Origin: Clostridia bacterium
GTDB taxonomy: Bacteria; Bacillota; Clostridia; UBA1212
Assembly: GCA_017444825.1 (NCBI GenBank)
Contig: JAFSVU010000035.1
Coordinates: 1 to 55,595, forward strand
DNA length: 55,595 bases
Reading direction: 5' to 3'
Shown here in pieces: positions 47,266 to 55,595 of this stretch. Position 1 is the stretch's first letter. Each line of letters begins with the position of its first letter. The notes under the pieces were generated by a model. That model worked only from the letters and a program-made list of their open reading frames with translations. It searched no databases and had not been told where the DNA came from. Both the position numbers and the translations under genes were made by a program.

Positions 47266-47313
47266 CAGATGTCCAGGCAGATGTCCAGGCAGATGTCCAG
47301 GCAGATGTCCAGG
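47266..47313. repeat. 12-bp tandem repeat, four exact copies
   Basis: CAGATGTCCAGG is repeated four times without change, then decays (CAAATTTCC). As the unit is a multiple of three, open frames cross it on both strands (QMSR or DICL repeats), but neither frame has a convincing start site. It lies 90 bases left of invertible segment A. Confidence 0.85.
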
Positions 47314-47404
47314 CAAATTTCCGCGGTGAACATTCAATAAAAGCGGCTCCAATAAAAAAGACACAGTCTCACGCCATGTCTCAATAAGGTTTATTTCTAC
47401 CGCT

Positions 47405-47614
47405 ACATAATGGTTAATATGTAACGGTTTTTCTTTTCTTCAGCGGCATTATTGTATCAAATCAAATCGGATTTAGTCAATACATTTACCCAAATTTTGT
47501 AAAGCCGGTTGGAAATACATGGCGGACACTGTTCGGCGTTGCGTCAACGGCTTTCGAGCCCTTACTTGTTTACCTGGAGACAGAGGTAATATGACAACAT
47601 AATAACCATTATGT
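47405..47614. other. putative invertible promoter segment A
   Basis: The left site ACATAATGGTTAATATGT (47405-47422) and the right site ACATAATAACCATTATGT (47597-47614) are inverted copies matching at 17 of 18 positions. Each has arms ACATAA/TTATGT around an asymmetric 6-bp core (TAACCA in the right site), like a tyrosine-recombinase crossover site. The 174 bases between them carry a good promoter pointing left (47451-47480). Inversion would aim it at the gene at 47641, 26 bases past the right site. A much weaker rightward candidate (TTGTTT, 15-base spacer, TAATAT at 47587) exists in the present orientation. Inversion itself is inferred. Confidence 0.6.
47451..47480 (-). promoter_or_regulatory. 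promoter inside segment A, pointing away from the cassette
   Basis: On the minus strand TTGACT (complement 47475-47480), an 18-base spacer and TACAAT (complement 47451-47456). The -10 lies 28 bases from the left inverted site. Confidence 0.65.
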
Positions 47615-47640: not shown

Positions 47641-48129
47641 ATGTCAATCGCTATTGTTATCATCATATTGCTCACGCTAAACATCCTTTATCTCACGAAT
47701 TATTTCGGCGAGAAGAGGATGAGGTTTGTTGTTTCCATGCTTATCACTCTTTTCTGCACGATGATATTGTTTTCAATCTCCGTACTGTCGCTTTACGCCA
47801 CTTCTGCGGATTTCCCGGATTTTCAGACTATAAATCTGATACTTATGACTAACGAGAATGTGTCGCTTCTTTTCAGCAATATCGCCATCGTACCGGAATA
47901 CACGATTTTCCTTCTTTGTGCTATAGCTGCGGTGTTTTGGTTTGCGGCGCTCTCCACGACATTCGTATTCTTACACCTGATCTACACGATCACCAAAAGA
48001 GTCATAAAAGAGATCTCAAAAGAGAAAGAGACCGAGGAGGCCGAGAAGAAGCCCGCTAAGGCTATTGGCTATGCCGCGGTCATTTCTCAAAAACCAATGT
48101 TATTACTCGTCTGCAGGCTAAACTGTTGA
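47641..48129 (+). CDS. small three-helix membrane protein A with CRLNC C-terminus
   Basis: 162 residues. Membrane helices lie at about 3-20, 28-52 and 85-115, followed by a charged cytoplasmic segment (KEISKEKETEEAEKK) and a final hydrophobic patch ending QKPMLLLVCRLNC. Its paralogue at 54497 has the same layout and ends QKPILKLICRMNC. No family is recognised. It is always followed by a prepilin-like gene here (65 bases downstream), so it may be a chaperone, anchor or assembly partner for that protein. GGAG precedes the ATG. Confidence 0.65.
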   Translation: MSIAIVIIILLTLNILYLTNYFGEKRMRFVVSMLITLFCTMILFSISVLSLYATSADFPDFQTINLILMTNENVSLLFSNIAIVPEYTIFLLCAIAAVFWFAALSTTFVFLHLIYTITKRVIKEISKEKETEEAEKKPAKAIGYAAVISQKPMLLLVCRLNC

Positions 48130-48194: not shown

Positions 48195-50558
48195 ATGAAA
48201 TCGAATAAAAAAGCTTTTACGGTTGTGGAGCTCGTGGTTGTAATCGCAATCATCGCAGTCCTTGCTGCCGTGCTTATTCCGACCTTCGCCAATATCATCA
48301 AAAAGGCAAACATCTCAAAAGACACGCAGCTAATCAGAAACCTCAACACAGCTCTTGCATCAAGCAGAGCCGCCAACAATAACAAACCCCACCCCACGAT
48401 GTACGATGCCCTTCAGGCAGCGGAGGCCTTTGGTTACGACGTTGGCAAAATCAACGCCTCTGCCCTCGGCAACGAAATCCTATGGGATCAGGAGAACGAT
48501 GTTTTCTGTTACCTTGAAGGTGACAAGATCCAATACCTGCCCGAACTTGTAGACACTGGCAAGCAACTCGCAATAACCGGTGATACCAATAATAGACCCT
48601 ATCATCTTTGGAAGATATTTGACAATCTTCATCCCTATACAGAGAATGACCATGGCTTTTCCATCTACTGGAACGGATTACCAATTGATACCCTTGTTGA
48701 GCTTGATGGTGTTGGTTTTGATGCCGGAACCGCAAGTGTAACCAATATCAGCTATACAAACAGCAACGCTGCTAGGGATGTAGTTATTCGTACTAATAGC
48801 AACCTTACTACGTTAACAGTAAATGCTCCTAAAGACATAGTCCGTCACTACGATACAGCAGGTATCGTAAACGTGATTTCTTGCGAGATGGCCTCATATC
48901 ATGAGAATGGAATCGTATCTTTCCTTGAAGTTGCCGGTGGGCACATCGTTCTTGAAGAGACATCTAAGGTGTCAGCTGTTCACTTCACGGCAACAAATGG
49001 CGCATTTAAGAATTCGGATAATAAAACAATTTCTATTGATTTAAGCAAACTGTCTAAAGAGAACATGCCTTCTTTTACAAGAGACACTGTCACAATTGGT
49101 ACGAATGGTACGTTTGTTGCGGAAGTAATAACGGACAAAGCTGAATTTGTTTGGCTATTTGGCAATGGTATCAAGGAACAAATGGTTGTAACAACACAAG
49201 AAGGAGCTATTGCTGAAAACGGAACATTAAAACCTGGAATCACCCCAGGTGCTAAGGCAGGATCAGTTGCTGAACAAATAGCTAATCCAGCAAAGAGAAA
49301 TAGTGAAGGCGCACTTGTTGATGATAATGGGGATGAAATCGATGTTTCAGCAGTTAACTGGTCAAACAACAATGCACTAGTTGATGTATCAGAGATTGTT
49401 TATGAGCCAATAAAAACAAAAGAAGATGCAATTAACGAGAATGTTGTTGAGGTTATCACCACATTTGCACAATTAAAAGACTTTGTTGAAAATGGCACAA
49501 AAATCAACGCCATAATTGGGTCTGACTTTGATATTACTGGACAAATTGCATTCGATAGAAAAATTGTTCTTGACCTTAATGGTCATAAATTGAGTAATAT
49601 AACAACTGGTTCTAGACCATTTAATATTAATGCTCACGCAGATGTTACAATTAATGGAACTACAGCCGGCAGTGAAATTAGCATGCCTACTTCAAACATC
49701 AGTTCATACGGATTATTCTTCCTTAATCAAGATTGCTATACATTGAAAGATACAGCAAACGGAATTTATGGTCCTTCACTGATTTTGAATGGTGGAACAT
49801 ATAGTGGTACCACAAATAGTGGTGGTATGATAAAATACAAAACATTCGTAAGCAACATTGAGATGTATGGTGTTACAATGGTAAGCACTGGTGGAGGACT
49901 TCTTGCCGGTGATGGCTCAATGTCCGCAAATTATACTGGCCCTGATGGATACAAACATAAGATGTCTTATAATTTCGCAACTATTAAAGATTGTAACTTT
50001 ACACAAGGTATTGCTGATAATGGCGTTAACACAAATGTTGGTTTATCTATTTCTGGTGTATATATTAGTAATGGTTTAATCGAAAATACTACAATTCTAT
50101 CTGCTCATGGTAATGCTTTATATTTATCAAATGGCATTTCTGAAGTTAAAAACTGTAGTATCATTGTTACGAATCCTAACCCAACAGCAGACTGGTTAGG
50201 TTCTGCGATCGGTGTAGCGGCAGATGCTGATGTAACAATTAATGGTGGAACATATCAAGGACAACAATTTGGGCTTGATGTTTATACATCAAATGGACAT
50301 GTTACAATTAATAACGGTACATTTACAGGAACCACTGCCTTGAATGTTAGGAACGCAGATTCGTATACAACTACTGATGGCTTTGGAACTCCAAACATCA
50401 AAGTTATGAACGGAGCATTTAATGGCAGTCTTTCAAAGGCATCAAATACTAAACTAGAAGTTTTTGGTGGAACTTTTACAGCTAATCCAACTGATTATGT
50501 TGATACCGAAAATTATCAAGTTACTGGAAGTGGACCATACACTGTTTCTGCAAAATAA
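48195..50558 (+). CDS. prepilin-like protein A with long beta-helix C-terminal region
   Basis: 787 residues. The N-terminus is a type IV prepilin signal: basic MKSNKKA, then FTVVELVVVIAIIAVLAAV with Glu at mature position 5, and LIPTFANIIKKAN. Ala rather than Gly precedes the cleavage site. The first 115 or so residues match the paralogue at 55031 (TQLIRNLNTALASSRAANNN, FGYDVGKINAS, EILWD). The rest diverges: an acidic middle part and then (about 430-787) repeated short strands (DVTINGGTYQG, HVTINNGTFTG, KLEVFGGTFTA) typical of a right-handed beta-helix. Base composition shifts to AT-rich at about 48600, so the gene looks chimeric. AGGAG precedes the ATG. Confidence 0.8.
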   Translation: MKSNKKAFTVVELVVVIAIIAVLAAVLIPTFANIIKKANISKDTQLIRNLNTALASSRAANNNKPHPTMYDALQAAEAFGYDVGKINASALGNEILWDQENDVFCYLEGDKIQYLPELVDTGKQLAITGDTNNRPYHLWKIFDNLHPYTENDHGFSIYWNGLPIDTLVELDGVGFDAGTASVTNISYTNSNAARDVVIRTNSNLTTLTVNAPKDIVRHYDTAGIVNVISCEMASYHENGIVSFLEVAGGHIVLEETSKVSAVHFTATNGAFKNSDNKTISIDLSKLSKENMPSFTRDTVTIGTNGTFVAEVITDKAEFVWLFGNGIKEQMVVTTQEGAIAENGTLKPGITPGAKAGSVAEQIANPAKRNSEGALVDDNGDEIDVSAVNWSNNNALVDVSEIVYEPIKTKEDAINENVVEVITTFAQLKDFVENGTKINAIIGSDFDITGQIAFDRKIVLDLNGHKLSNITTGSRPFNINAHADVTINGTTAGSEISMPTSNISSYGLFFLNQDCYTLKDTANGIYGPSLILNGGTYSGTTNSGGMIKYKTFVSNIEMYGVTMVSTGGGLLAGDGSMSANYTGPDGYKHKMSYNFATIKDCNFTQGIADNGVNTNVGLSISGVYISNGLIENTTILSAHGNALYLSNGISEVKNCSIIVTNPNPTADWLGSAIGVAADADVTINGGTYQGQQFGLDVYTSNGHVTINNGTFTGTTALNVRNADSYTTTDGFGTPNIKVMNGAFNGSLSKASNTKLEVFGGTFTANPTDYVDTENYQVTGSGPYTVSAK

Positions 50559-50804: not shown

Positions 50805-51908
50805 TTACGACTTCGTTTTGTGTAGAAATTTACATCCAGTTTGGTGCGCTATATTCAATCCGTCGGCATAAATGTAAATTGTACTATTTGCTTCTTTGAT
50901 TTCGACATCTTTTCCTATATAATCAGGGTCAAGAGAGTATTTGCGTCTCTTGTAGGTGATCATAGACTCTTTAGAAACTTTTCTTACAACGGGCTTTGTC
51001 AAGTAGCTTCTTAAGATCTCATCCGCAGGCATTGGCAGCAGATACTCTTTTTCTTTTGTCAGAAGTTTGAACGGCGGCGAGCCGGTTGCATCAAATGCCT
51101 CATTGTTAATATCATTTCTCAATTCACTAACAATTTGTTCTAGTTCTTCGATTGTTGTGAATTCATGATTGTATGGCCGAAGTCTTTGCATAAGTTTTGC
51201 TAATGCCTCTACTTTACCTTTTGTCTGAGGACGATAAGCTCTGCACGTAATAATCTGAAAGCCAAAATCTTTTGAAAAATGATAAAACGTATCATTGATT
51301 ACAGCTTCATTGTATTGAGTTCGGCTTTGATCCACTACTGTGCGCATGTTGTCAAAAAGAATCTCTTTAGGAACGCCTCCAAAAAACTTAAATGCATTTA
51401 TCATAGCTGATAGGAGAGTGTCCTGGTTGCGATCAAGGGTTAACTCAATATATTTTGTGCGTGAGTAACCCAGCACCATTAGGAAAACATTAATTGTGTA
51501 ATCCATACCATCAGCCGATGTAAGTGTGAATTTTTCCTTCCAGTCCACCTGTCCTTGCAGCCCCGGATTTGTTTCAAACCGCATCGTTGCCTTTCTTCTT
51601 TCTGCGGTTTTAACAGTTTTGCAATACTCATTTAAAATGGTGTATTTGCCACAATATCCCTTTTTCTTGACGAATCTGTAAATAGCGGCGGCTGTACAAC
51701 CATCCTTAACTTTGTCAGCAATAATACTTTTGAAGCCATCAAGCTTTGATGGATGAGCACGTCGCTCGCATCGGTCAGAATCATCTCTTTCGTAATACCG
51801 CTTAACTGTTCTGTAATCGCAATTGTAAGTTCTTGCTACTTCAGCATAGTTAATCTCAATGTCTTGCTTCTTCATGATTTTTATCCGTTCGAAAATGTCC
51901 TTTCTCAT
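50805..51908 (-). CDS. IS21 family transposase IstA
   Basis: 367 residues. An N-terminal helix-turn-helix (INYAEVARTYNCDYRTVKRYYE) is followed by an rve/DDE integrase core: Asp in GQVDWKE, Asp in ILFDNMRTVV and Glu in KGKVEALAKLM. The C-terminal beta segment (KYSLDPDYIGKDVEIKEANSTIYIYADG) is intact. Start at 51908 with GGAGGTGA 5 bases upstream. The length is shorter than many IstA proteins (400-500). IstB, the ATPase partner normally encoded just downstream, is missing: after the stop only end repeats and the cassette A terminator follow. Confidence 0.85.
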   Translation of the reverse strand: MRKDIFERIKIMKKQDIEINYAEVARTYNCDYRTVKRYYERDDSDRCERRAHPSKLDGFKSIIADKVKDGCTAAAIYRFVKKKGYCGKYTILNEYCKTVKTAERRKATMRFETNPGLQGQVDWKEKFTLTSADGMDYTINVFLMVLGYSRTKYIELTLDRNQDTLLSAMINAFKFFGGVPKEILFDNMRTVVDQSRTQYNEAVINDTFYHFSKDFGFQIITCRAYRPQTKGKVEALAKLMQRLRPYNHEFTTIEELEQIVSELRNDINNEAFDATGSPPFKLLTKEKEYLLPMPADEILRSYLTKPVVRKVSKESMITYKRRKYSLDPDYIGKDVEIKEANSTIYIYADGLNIAHQTGCKFLHKTKS

Positions 51909-52160: not shown

Positions 52161-52223
52161 ATGAAATTTATAACTAATCCATTAAAAAAACTATTATTTG
52201 TTGGAGGTAAAATATGGAATTAA
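52161..52223 (+). CDS. 20-codon leader peptide overlapping the OLD-family gene
   Basis: ATG at 52161 preceded by a near-perfect AGGAGG. The frame encodes MKFITNPLKKLLFVGGKIWN and stops at 52223, overlapping the start of the ATPase gene (52214) by 10 bases. This arrangement fits a leader peptide used for translational coupling. It may also be a gene remnant. Confidence 0.4.
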   Translation: MKFITNPLKKLLFVGGKIWN

Positions 52224-53914
52224 AAAGTGTATCAATTTACAATTTTAGAAGTATAAGTTCTGCGGAAAGTATATTTTTATCTAATTATACTATTCTTGTT
52301 GGAAAAAATAATGAAGGAAAAACTAATGTTTTATCAGCAATTGGTATGGCAATCGAAACTATTGATAATCCACTAGCAAAGTATGATATAAATTTTTTTC
52401 AAAGGAGCTATCAAAGAGATTTTGAATATAATTTGGAACGAGATTATCCGGTTAAATTGAATACCGGTTAATATGATAAAATGAAACCCACAAAAATAGT
52501 ACTTGCTTTTTTACTTAATGACGATGAAAAATTAAAGTTTAAAACAGAATTAGGCCTTGAAAACAATGGGGACCTATGTGTTGAAATAACGTATGTTAAA
52601 AATGAAAAGTTTAATTATTATATACCGAATTTTCTAATTAAAGGGAAAAAAGGAAGAGGTGCTAGTACGTATAAAGAAAAAATACGAAGCGTTTTAAAGT
52701 TTGTTAGTGAAAATTTCTTTTTCACATATATTCCTGCTGTTAGAACATCAGACCAATCTATGGATGTGTTGCAATCTATAGTTAACAATAGAATTAGTGA
52801 ATTAAAAAACGATTCTGATTACTATAATGCTTTAAAGCTTTTAGAAGATAAAGAAACAAAACTAATGGAAGAGATTAGTTCTACGTTAACTCCAACCTTA
52901 ACTAAGTTTTTACCAGATGTTAAAAATGCTCTAATAACAACAACTTCTAAAAGGAGAGTTTATTCTAGGGCCATGTGGACTTTAATGATAGACGATGGAA
53001 ATAATACGGATATTTCATCAAAAGGAGATGGAATTAAAAGTTTGGCTGCTATAGCTTTACTTAAAAGTACTAGAGCAAATAAAGGATTTGTCGCAATAGA
53101 AGAACCAGAATCACATTTACATTCTGGTGCAATACATAAACTTGACGAGGTTTTAAGAGAAATATCTATGCATCAACAAGTATTAATTACAACTCATAAT
53201 GCCTGTTTTGTGAATCTTGCAAACTTAGAATCAAACATTGTTGTATCAAATGGTGAATGTTCTCCAGTACATTCTTTGGATAAACTTAGAGAGGAATTAG
53301 GTATATCGCTATCTGAAACATTGATTGTATCAGATAATATAATTGTTGTTGAAGGGGCTAGTGATATTAGAATTTATAAAAAAATATTATCAATTTTTAG
53401 TTCTAAAATAGAGCAATCATTAAACAATAAAACATTGTCAATTATTGCAGCGGGGAGTGCTTCAAAAGTATATTCATTGATGAATACCTATGAAAGTTGG
53501 TTAATTAAAACTTTTGCTATTTTTGACGCAGATGAATCTGGAAAAATGGAAATCGAAAATATGAAAAAAGATGGTAAACATAATTATGCAAAGTTACCAT
53601 TACATGGAAGAAACGAAACAGAAATTGAAGACATTTTGCCCTCTTATATATTGAACGAAGCAGTTTCAAACGTTTTAGGGATTAATATAGATAATGAAAC
53701 ATTTAAAAGAGATAAGTCTAAATTTTGTAAGAGATTGAAAAAGTTTTGTGATGCAAGCGGTTATGAACTTACTGACAAAGATAAAATAAATATAAAAACA
53801 AACATAGCTGATTTAATTGAGCATAACGACAACTTAGATAATAATTTATCTAAGGATGTAGTTGAAGCAATAAGGTTAATTTCAGAAAGAATAGAAAAAG
53901 ATTTTTCATTATAG
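52214..53914 (+). pseudogene. OLD-family ATPase/TOPRIM nuclease interrupted by one in-frame stop
   Basis: A single reading frame runs from the ATG at 52214 (GGAGGT upstream) to 53914 but has one TAA at 52469-52471. Before it are 85 residues with the FRSI start and the Walker A loop LVGKNNEGKTN. After it the frame continues with only YDK before an ATG at 52481, giving 477 residues. These hold the ABC-type signature region (SSKGDGIKSLAAIALL), Walker B (GFVAIEEPESHLH), TTHN and a TOPRIM domain (IVVEGASDI, FAIFDADESGKME). OLD nucleases act in phage defence. The break separates Walker A from the rest, so it is probably inactive unless the stop is read through or is an assembly error. Very AT-rich. 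Confidence 0.8.
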
Positions 53915-54212: not shown

Positions 54213-54470
54213 ACATAACATCAATTATGTAGCTTAATACGATCATTTTTTACATGGCTAATTATACCAAAAGACTCTGTGTTGCGTCAATATATTCAAG
54301 CGATTTTCCTCAATTATTTCAAATAAAAAACAATTATTAAAAGCCACACGTCATATTAGTTATAGTTATTCTGAAGGGTTCCAGAATCCAGCACAAAACA
54401 GTAAGTAGCGAAAAAAGCTTAGAAAAGCTGGCCTAAACACCGAAATCGAACAACATAATTGATGTTATGT
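54213..54470. other. putative invertible promoter segment B
   Basis: ACATAACATCAATTATGT (54213-54230) and ACATAATTGATGTTATGT (54453-54470) are exact 18-bp inverted copies, 222 bases apart. Arms ACATAA/TTATGT are the same as in segment A, but the 6-bp core is CATCAA instead of TAACCA. A strong promoter inside (54261-54290) points left, away from the cassette, with its -10 30 bases from the left site (28 in segment A). The right site ends 26 bases before the gene at 54497, the same distance as in A. Both segments share GTTGCGTCAA. Confidence 0.65.
54261..54290 (-). promoter_or_regulatory. promoter inside segment B, pointing away from the cassette
   Basis: On the minus strand TTGACG (complement 54285-54290), an 18-base spacer and TATAAT (complement 54261-54266) preceded by TGG, giving an extended -10. 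Confidence 0.7.
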
Positions 54471-54496: not shown

Positions 54497-54976
54497 ATGA
54501 TCTATATCATTCTCGCGCTGATCTCGCTCAGCGTTCTGTACCTAACAAGATACTTTACCCGGAAAGGTATGCGCGCCGCATCCGTAGCAATCGTGGCGCT
54601 GCTTTGCGTTGTCTTCACGATATCCATTGGCGTTCTCTGCGTTAAGGCCGTCCATCCGTACTACCCCGCGGAAGAGGAAATGTTCATCATTTTCTCCGAA
54701 AACGGGTTGGTTGAGTTATTCTTCGGTACAAAAGGGATCGCTCCTGAGTTTACGTTGTCCATTCTGCGGACGGTTGTGGCTCTAATTGCGGTCACTATCG
54801 GCGTCACGGGGCTTGTTCTACTCCACGGATTCTTCGAAATAACCAAGGCTGTCGTCGCTTTCGTCAAATCTTCCAGGCGGGAAACTACCCACACAATTGT
54901 AAGACAGACCGAACCATTGGGCTCGTTTAATACACAAAAACCAATACTGAAACTCATCTGCAGGATGAACTGTTGA
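54497..54976 (+). CDS. small three-helix membrane protein B with CRMNC C-terminus
   Basis: 159 residues, a paralogue of the protein at 47641. Helices lie at about 1-17, 26-50 and 84-118. A basic cytoplasmic segment (KSSRRETTHTIVRQ) precedes the terminal QKPILKLICRMNC. Sequence between the helices diverges but spacing, topology and the last 13 residues are conserved. It is followed by a second prepilin-like gene 54 bases on, in the same order as cassette A. GAGG lies about 8 bases before the ATG. Confidence 0.65.
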   Translation: MIYIILALISLSVLYLTRYFTRKGMRAASVAIVALLCVVFTISIGVLCVKAVHPYYPAEEEMFIIFSENGLVELFFGTKGIAPEFTLSILRTVVALIAVTIGVTGLVLLHGFFEITKAVVAFVKSSRRETTHTIVRQTEPLGSFNTQKPILKLICRMNC

Positions 54977-55030: not shown

Positions 55031-55595
55031 ATGAGAAATAAAAAAGCTTTTACAGTGGTTGAGCTCGTCATCGTGATCGCCATCATTGCGATCCTCGCGG
55101 CGGTGCTCATACCTACGTTTGCGAACATTATCAAGAAAGCTAACACGTCGAAAGACAATCAGCTTATCAGAAACCTTAACACGGCGCTTGCGGCAAGCAG
55201 AGCGGAAAACAACAACGAACCCCACGCCAACATGACCGAGGCCCTCGCGGCAGCGGAGAAGTTTGGTTATGAGGTCGACAAGATCAACGCATCCGGAACT
55301 GATGCAGAGATCCTTTGGGACAGCCAGAACGACCTGTTCTGCTATTTTGATGGCAGTGAGATCAAATATATTCCGGAAAGTGAGCTCATATACACAAAGA
55401 ACAACACAGATCCGAAGAAGCAGATCTATGACGTTGACTACTGGGTAATCAGAAAAGATGTAACAGACACAGGCGAAGATAACAGGGGCGAAGGCGAGCA
55501 TCAGATCTCCGCTATGTATTCGACATACCTGGCAGGCCTTGCCGGCAATGATGCCACCATCGTAATTACGAAAGGCCTTGACGTTGGTAATAATA
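55031..55595 (+). CDS. prepilin-like protein B, cut by the window end
   Basis: 188 codons are visible and the frame is open at the edge. MRNKKA then FTVVELVIVIAIIAILAAV and LIPTFANIIKKANTSKDNQLIRNLNTALAASRAENNN closely match paralogue A, again with Ala before the predicted cleavage site. Similarity fades after about residue 115 (from IPESELIYTKNN on), where B goes its own way (YDVDYWVIRKDVTDTG). So the N-terminal assembly part is conserved and the exposed part varies. AGAGG lies about 9 bases upstream of the ATG. Confidence 0.8.
   Translation, partial: MRNKKAFTVVELVIVIAIIAILAAVLIPTFANIIKKANTSKDNQLIRNLNTALAASRAENNNEPHANMTEALAAAEKFGYEVDKINASGTDAEILWDSQNDLFCYFDGSEIKYIPESELIYTKNNTDPKKQIYDVDYWVIRKDVTDTGEDNRGEGEHQISAMYSTYLAGLAGNDATIVITKGLDVGNN

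Follow-up and report, generated by a model that had tools for sequence, protein, structure and literature searches.

Why should a promoter lie between two perfectly inverted copies of one site and point away from the genes beside it? The question is raised by the right end of the stretch of DNA analysed here, a 55,595-nucleotide contig (JAFSVU010000035.1, hereafter the window) from a gut-type Clostridia bacterium of the lineage UBA1212 (assembly GCA_017444825.1), where positions 54213–54470 hold an element that we call inverton B. Our analyses indicate that B is very probably one of at least 13 invertons in this genome, which share the arms of their sites, carry private cores and would be flipped in trans by one recombinase of 281 amino acids (aa). 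The left recombination site of B (ACATAACATCAATTATGT, ACATAA-CATCAA-TTATGT; 54213..54230, plus strand) and the right one (ACATAATTGATGTTATGT; 54453..54470, minus strand), both located by the site search, are exact reverse complements of one another, as a first-pass annotation of this DNA had claimed, and their 12-base arm pattern occurs three times in the window and never in 100 shuffles. They enclose a 222-bp segment (54231..54452) with a promoter, TTGACG-18-TATAAT, on the minus strand (54290–54261); TGG precedes its -10 element, the left site is 30 bases away and, again in agreement with that annotation, it points away from the cassette to the right, which is OFF as assembled. The first gene of this cassette encodes a 159-aa predicted membrane protein of family A1 (54497..54976, plus strand), which found no match in Pfam or NCBIfam. 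The second encodes a prepilin-like surface protein (55031..55595, plus strand; cut by the window end), recognized by the prepilin N-terminal alignment A3, and its homologues carry PF07963. An Rfam scan of the window found no RNA family.

The evidence for inversion comes from comparison of B with its relatives. B and three other switches of this genome, C29, C36 and C42b (named after their contigs), are paralogues with collinear right flanks, at 75–94% identity, on the side of the target gene. Their interiors occur in two orientations, with the promoter directed away from the gene in B and C36 and toward it in C29 and C42b, so that the four are frozen as two ON and two OFF. Between B and C42b, where the right flanks are collinear and 94% identical, the interior aligns as the reverse complement (z 11.9, against 1.9 in the same direction), and the same holds between B and C29 (8.4 against 0.2). 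Orthologous loci of other genomes, in which the switch adjoins a recombinase gene in cis, repeat the pattern. In L110 and L127 (core CGAGAG), the left flanks (87%) and a stretch of the right flanks (79%) are both collinear, while the interior is inverted (a minus-strand match of 107 bp at 83%), with a global z of 14.4 against 1.3. The L069 and L084 interiors are likewise inverted (z 16.9 against 0.4), and L127 and L130 again show an inverted interior between collinear flanks. Among paralogues and orthologues alike, collinear flanks enclose homologous interiors of either orientation, which bears out the earlier proposal of inversion and supports the view of B as an invertible promoter, whose orientation would control whether transcription is ON or OFF.

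The switch is not alone in the genome. Exact ACATAA-N6-TTATGT sites number 20, against none for a reversed control pattern. When up to one arm mismatch was allowed per site, 13 inverted pairs were found, with mates 64–224 bp apart: inverton B and a second one, inverton A, on the contig of the window (C18), one pair each on C19, C29, C36, C45 and C49, and two each on C27, C42 and C44. Nineteen of the 20 exact sites belong to these pairs, the lone exception being located on C46 at the edge of the contig. The arms ACATAA and TTATGT, with a weak TRYA extension, are common to all 13 loci, although mismatches in the arms are present in 6 of the 13 pairs. A promoter is recognizable in 11 loci, of which C19, C29, C42b and C44a are assembled ON and A, B, C36, C42a, C44b, C45 and C49 are assembled OFF. 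The common switching system claimed by the first-pass annotation is thus upheld by the genome-wide search; single sites without a promoter between them, which would have spoken against it, are not what the genome holds, the one unpaired exact site lying at a contig edge.

Two of these places differ from the simple layout. Contig C46 starts inside an inverton-like segment (C46:1-204), and the break in the assembly may stem from mixed orientations or from repeated cassettes. The C49 switch sits between divergent prepilin genes, and its promoter now faces the rightward one (L026:6598-8700); this switch may alternate between two targets rather than between ON and OFF.

The cores behave differently from the arms. 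Within the 13 pairs, all six core bases match between the mates in every case (78 of 78 bases), and the 13 loci have 13 different cores, as the earlier claim that cores match within loci and not between them had anticipated from two. The identity of the mates is nearly complete over the 18 bp and ends sharply at the edges of the site. A survey near recombinase genes that used the arms only gave 64 of 66 site pairs with all six core bases matched in inverted orientation, and the other two were direct copies. Mates differ at seven arm positions and no core position in the 13 pairs of this genome, and at eight and none in the cis loci, when one spurious hit (L125) is set aside; with equal rates in arms and cores, 15 arm mismatches and no core mismatch would have a probability of (2/3)^15, about 0.002, a figure made conservative by the arm threshold. 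Paralogues with about 94% identical flanks nevertheless differ in their cores (CATCAA versus CATTTA) while their mates remain matched, and therefore the cores change in lock-step. Selection for distinct cores is statistically not needed. All 81 cores examined are non-palindromic, where chance would yield few palindromes; with a palindromic core, a site would no longer have a direction.

Which enzyme could flip these sites? Only two proteins with PF00589, the tyrosine recombinase family, are encoded in the genome, one of 324 aa and the other, Xer-like, of 281 aa, the latter by an intact gene at C8:37799-38641. The 324-aa protein is related to XerC/D; 29 of 36 genomes contain matches to it, whether or not they carry sites. 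The 281-aa recombinase is more divergent, and its family is found in 10 of the 36, its own genome included. Exact inverted pairs occur in nine of these ten, and the pairing sites of the tenth, G005, have variant arms (ACATTA...TAATGT), whereas no exact pair was found in the 26 genomes without the family; if relatedness is ignored, the chance that all nine pair-bearing genomes fall among these ten of 36 is near 1e-7. Moreover, all 11 exact pairs of the relatives lie within about 50 bp of the 3′ end of a 281-type gene. A wider scan of named genomes gave 80 homologues, and paired sites were present at 57 of the 62 that had at least 450 bp of downstream sequence; the hosts include rumen and hindgut Clostridia and Oscillospiraceae known as metagenome-assembled genomes, Holdemania, Clostridium transplantifaecale and Hungatella effluvii. 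The adjacency of a candidate recombinase family to the same sites in relatives gives further support to a common switching system.

The 281-aa protein is a full-length relative of this family with invariant catalytic residues (R140, K162/K164, H227, R230, H253 and Y262). Its best PDB matches, by sequence and by fold, are XerA-, XerD- and XerC-like; the global template-modelling (TM) scores are modest, below 0.55, and the Xer assignment rests on sequence and E-values. The family is present in only 10 of the 36 relatives and its sites are many and paired, unlike a housekeeping Xer, which most members of a group conserve together with a single dif site near the terminus. In the tree, the protein nests, with moderate support, within the cis family, its neighbours being a cis copy from a Lachnospiraceae metagenome-assembled genome and the same-genus copy of G005. 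No inverton adjoins its gene, and no pair lies directly 3′ of it; therefore it would act in trans. From these sequence comparisons, the simplest reading is a cis ancestor with trans action in this genome, and the catalyst at the 13 loci would be the 281-aa protein. A serine recombinase was rejected as the catalyst. Serine invertases such as Mpi and Hin are small serine recombinases with a 2-bp crossover; the genome has only three serine recombinases, all large (515–827 aa), and the class does not fit the site, while a tyrosine enzyme does because the matched centre is 6 bp long. At the cis loci L097, L110, L127, L132 and L138, three or four sites that share one core stand 3′ of the recombinase gene, direct copies included, and such copies would allow deletion besides inversion.

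Several observations weigh against this account. The two orientations were found between paralogues and between orthologues, not within one population. No recombinase stands beside any of the 13 loci, so that trans action rests on linkage at the level of the family and on the count of two tyrosine recombinases in an assembly that is 97% complete, from which another enzyme may possibly be missing. The C27a and C27b segments contain no clear sigma-70-type promoter. Among the homologues of the recombinase, L062, L081, L125 and the L100/L092 group lack a neighbouring pair of this kind, and not one exact site was found in the genomes of L062, L081, L125 and L100. Finally, the distinctness of the 13 cores would be unsurprising under neutral drift, with a probability of about 0.5 from the column composition or 0.09 from the pool of cis cores. 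L062, L081 and L125 were also considered as further trans networks with these arms, and were ruled out by the lack of exact sites in their genomes.

Taken as a working mechanism, inversion of the 222-bp segment of B would let its promoter drive the rightward operon of the 159-aa membrane protein and the large prepilin-like surface protein. One 281-aa Xer-like tyrosine recombinase would flip all 13 loci in trans, with the arms as its putative binding sites. The 6-bp core would be the region of strand exchange and would have to match, so that each site would recombine with its own mate and not with other loci. Tyrosine recombinases make staggered cuts at the edges of the core, which is established chemistry, and because of this we propose that the exchange itself re-matches the cores. 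By deduction, when a completed inversion involves cores that differ slightly, one strand would end up with the core of the first mate at both sites, and the other strand with that of the second. Replication would then restore matched pairs, and the cores would drift in lock-step and become addresses of their loci. The arms would not be exchanged as heteroduplex, so that arm mismatches would persist. We suggest, tentatively, that the set may work as a switchboard, in which each inversion re-matches the cores and prevents cross-talk, and in which duplicated switches drift automatically to private addresses.

Three other explanations were considered. The housekeeping 324-aa Xer protein might recombine the sites, as happens at dif-like sites of plasmids and phages, and the 281-aa protein might be unrelated to them. 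The inner arms of the Escherichia coli dif site read CATAA-N6-TTATG, which the arms of the present sites resemble, and the 324-aa protein is a clear relative of XerC/D. We nevertheless consider this explanation unlikely, since most relatives that lack paired sites still encode the 324-aa protein, whereas the pairs are confined to genomes with the 281-aa family and adjoin the 281-type gene; the altered arms of the same-genus copy are also accompanied by a 281-type enzyme of their own. A contribution of the 324-aa protein as a partner is possible. Alternatively, the switches may have been active in a cis ancestor and may now be relics that were spread by duplication and are no longer flipped, as the loss of the cis recombinase from all 13 loci and the arm mismatches in nearly half of the pairs would suggest. 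The matched cores at all 13 loci, and their lock-step divergence between paralogues with about 94% identical flanks, would require continuing exchange or strong selection, and the gene of the recombinase is intact and retains the catalytic residues; relics are therefore very unlikely.

The remaining alternative is that a regulator binds the paired palindromes, which would then be operators or transcription elements and would not recombine. The sites are indeed near-palindromic, flank a promoter and stand 26 bp from the start codon. Operators, however, would leave homologous interiors in both orientations between collinear flanks unaccounted for, would provide no reason for cores that are identical between mates and vary freely between loci, and would not explain the linkage to a tyrosine recombinase family. 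This alternative is strongly disfavoured, and we regard it as extremely improbable. Inversion by the 281-aa recombinase is the explanation that we retain.

Invertible promoters, tyrosine invertases, recombinase-proximal invertons of Clostridia and master recombinases of multiple loci are all known. The dif site is laid out as two arms of ~11 bp around a 6-bp centre. Xer/dif systems, such as XerH–difH (PDB 5jjv), resemble the present one in fold, in catalytic residues and in this layout of the site, and differ in having one site for dimer resolution instead of many near-palindromic inverted pairs for promoter inversion. The sites of Mpi have a common sequence. In Bacteroides fragilis, this serine master recombinase acts on at least 13 dispersed invertible regions, including surface polysaccharide loci (PMC5903667); one recombinase for many dispersed regions is the shared feature, and the class, serine there and tyrosine here, is the difference. 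RecV of Clostridioides difficile is, like the enzyme proposed here, a clostridial tyrosine recombinase that works in trans on several switches, but the inverted repeats of C. difficile are described as mutually unrelated except for Cdi2 and Cdi5 (PMC5903667), whereas the loci of this genome keep the same arms and differ only in the 6-bp core. Also close is the Clostridia inverton 'group 139', which the 2025 hCom2 survey links to the tyrosine-type 'invertase group 35', with flipping seen in reads of Clostridium sp. D5 and Intestinimonas butyriciproducens (PMC11892184). There, a tyrosine-type recombinase lies near nearly every inverton of the group and the segments are about 200–230 bp long in two named examples; the group is described as recombinase-proximal, in contrast to one enzyme without a proximal inverton and 13 dispersed loci with private cores in the present genome, a comparison at the level of the published description (PMC11892184). 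Our search of the open-licence literature found no account of such a network, in which a single tyrosine recombinase would act in trans on 13 loci that have their arms in common and their cores to themselves.

Inverton A, the other switch of the window, shares the geometry of B. Its left site (ACATAATGGTTAATATGT, core TGGTTA; 47405..47422, plus strand) has one arm mismatch relative to the right site (47597..47614, minus strand), so that the first-pass description of two exact 18-bp pairs is right for B and not for A. The 174-bp segment between them (47423..47596) contains the promoter TTGACT-18-TACAAT (47451..47480, minus strand), 28 bases from the A site and also pointing away from its cassette (OFF). 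In A and B alike, inverted repeats flank a promoter upstream of a gene, the arrangement that defines an inverton. Our remeasurement agrees with the near-equal distances reported earlier, from promoter to site (28 and 30 bases) and from site to ATG (26 bases in both). This geometry does recur at both loci, but its recurrence is not quite independent, as had been argued, since B is paralogous to several of the other switches. Cassette A encodes a 162-aa predicted membrane protein (47641..48129, plus strand) and a 787-aa prepilin-like protein (48195..50558, plus strand) with an N-terminal pilin helix and a beta-rich head, in a predicted structure of low confidence past the N-terminal third. Just upstream of inverton A is a perfect 12-bp tandem array, CAGATGTCCAGG, in 4.2 copies (47266–47315). 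Between the two cassettes lie an IS21-family transposase gene (50805–51908, minus strand) and an OLD-family ATPase/TOPRIM gene (52214–53914) with one in-frame stop after residue 85.

Each of the 13 pairs precedes a prepilin-like gene or operon. Behind most of them, the operon encodes a predicted membrane protein of ~160 aa followed by a prepilin-like protein of about 700–1100 aa; directly behind C45 come two prepilin-like proteins, the first of 695 aa and the second of more than 2100 aa, and no gene for a membrane protein was called in between; small pilin-like proteins follow both C27 pairs. Family searches with the cassette proteins detect only the prepilin N-terminal motif PF07963. The eleven strongest matches in the search with the prepilin N-terminal alignment all stand behind an inverton, and the sister species searched have 0–3 matches each to the prepilin family. 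The membrane protein family has ten members here and none in five same-genus genomes. Two prepilin loci of sister species, L151 and L152, have no inverted pairs; they offer no clean view of a locus before and after insertion of a switch, because their neighbourhoods differ. A type IV pilus cluster on C45 (L153:7190-16999) includes a PilT-like ATPase, a prepilin-peptidase-like open reading frame (both named from the beginnings of their sequences and from gene order, not by family search) and a homologue of the cassette membrane protein, hinting that the ~160-aa protein is a pilus accessory. Judged from these gene families, the switches would serve phase-variable surface structures, and different pilin-like surface proteins would be turned on or off singly, one at a time.

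Promoter inversion is common in gut bacteria, and it is usually open to which enzyme a given switch belongs and how a single enzyme can act on many loci without rearranging the chromosome. In this system, the arms (for recognition by the enzyme) and the core (for recognition of the partner) separate cleanly over 13 loci in one genome and in dozens of relatives, and both questions are therefore directly testable. The loci also provide, ready-made, recombination sites that are orthogonal by nature. Finally, they would record a transition from cis to trans, from one recombinase per switch in the relatives to one recombinase in this bacterium for the 13 switches that precede the genes of an expanded family of prepilin-like surface proteins.
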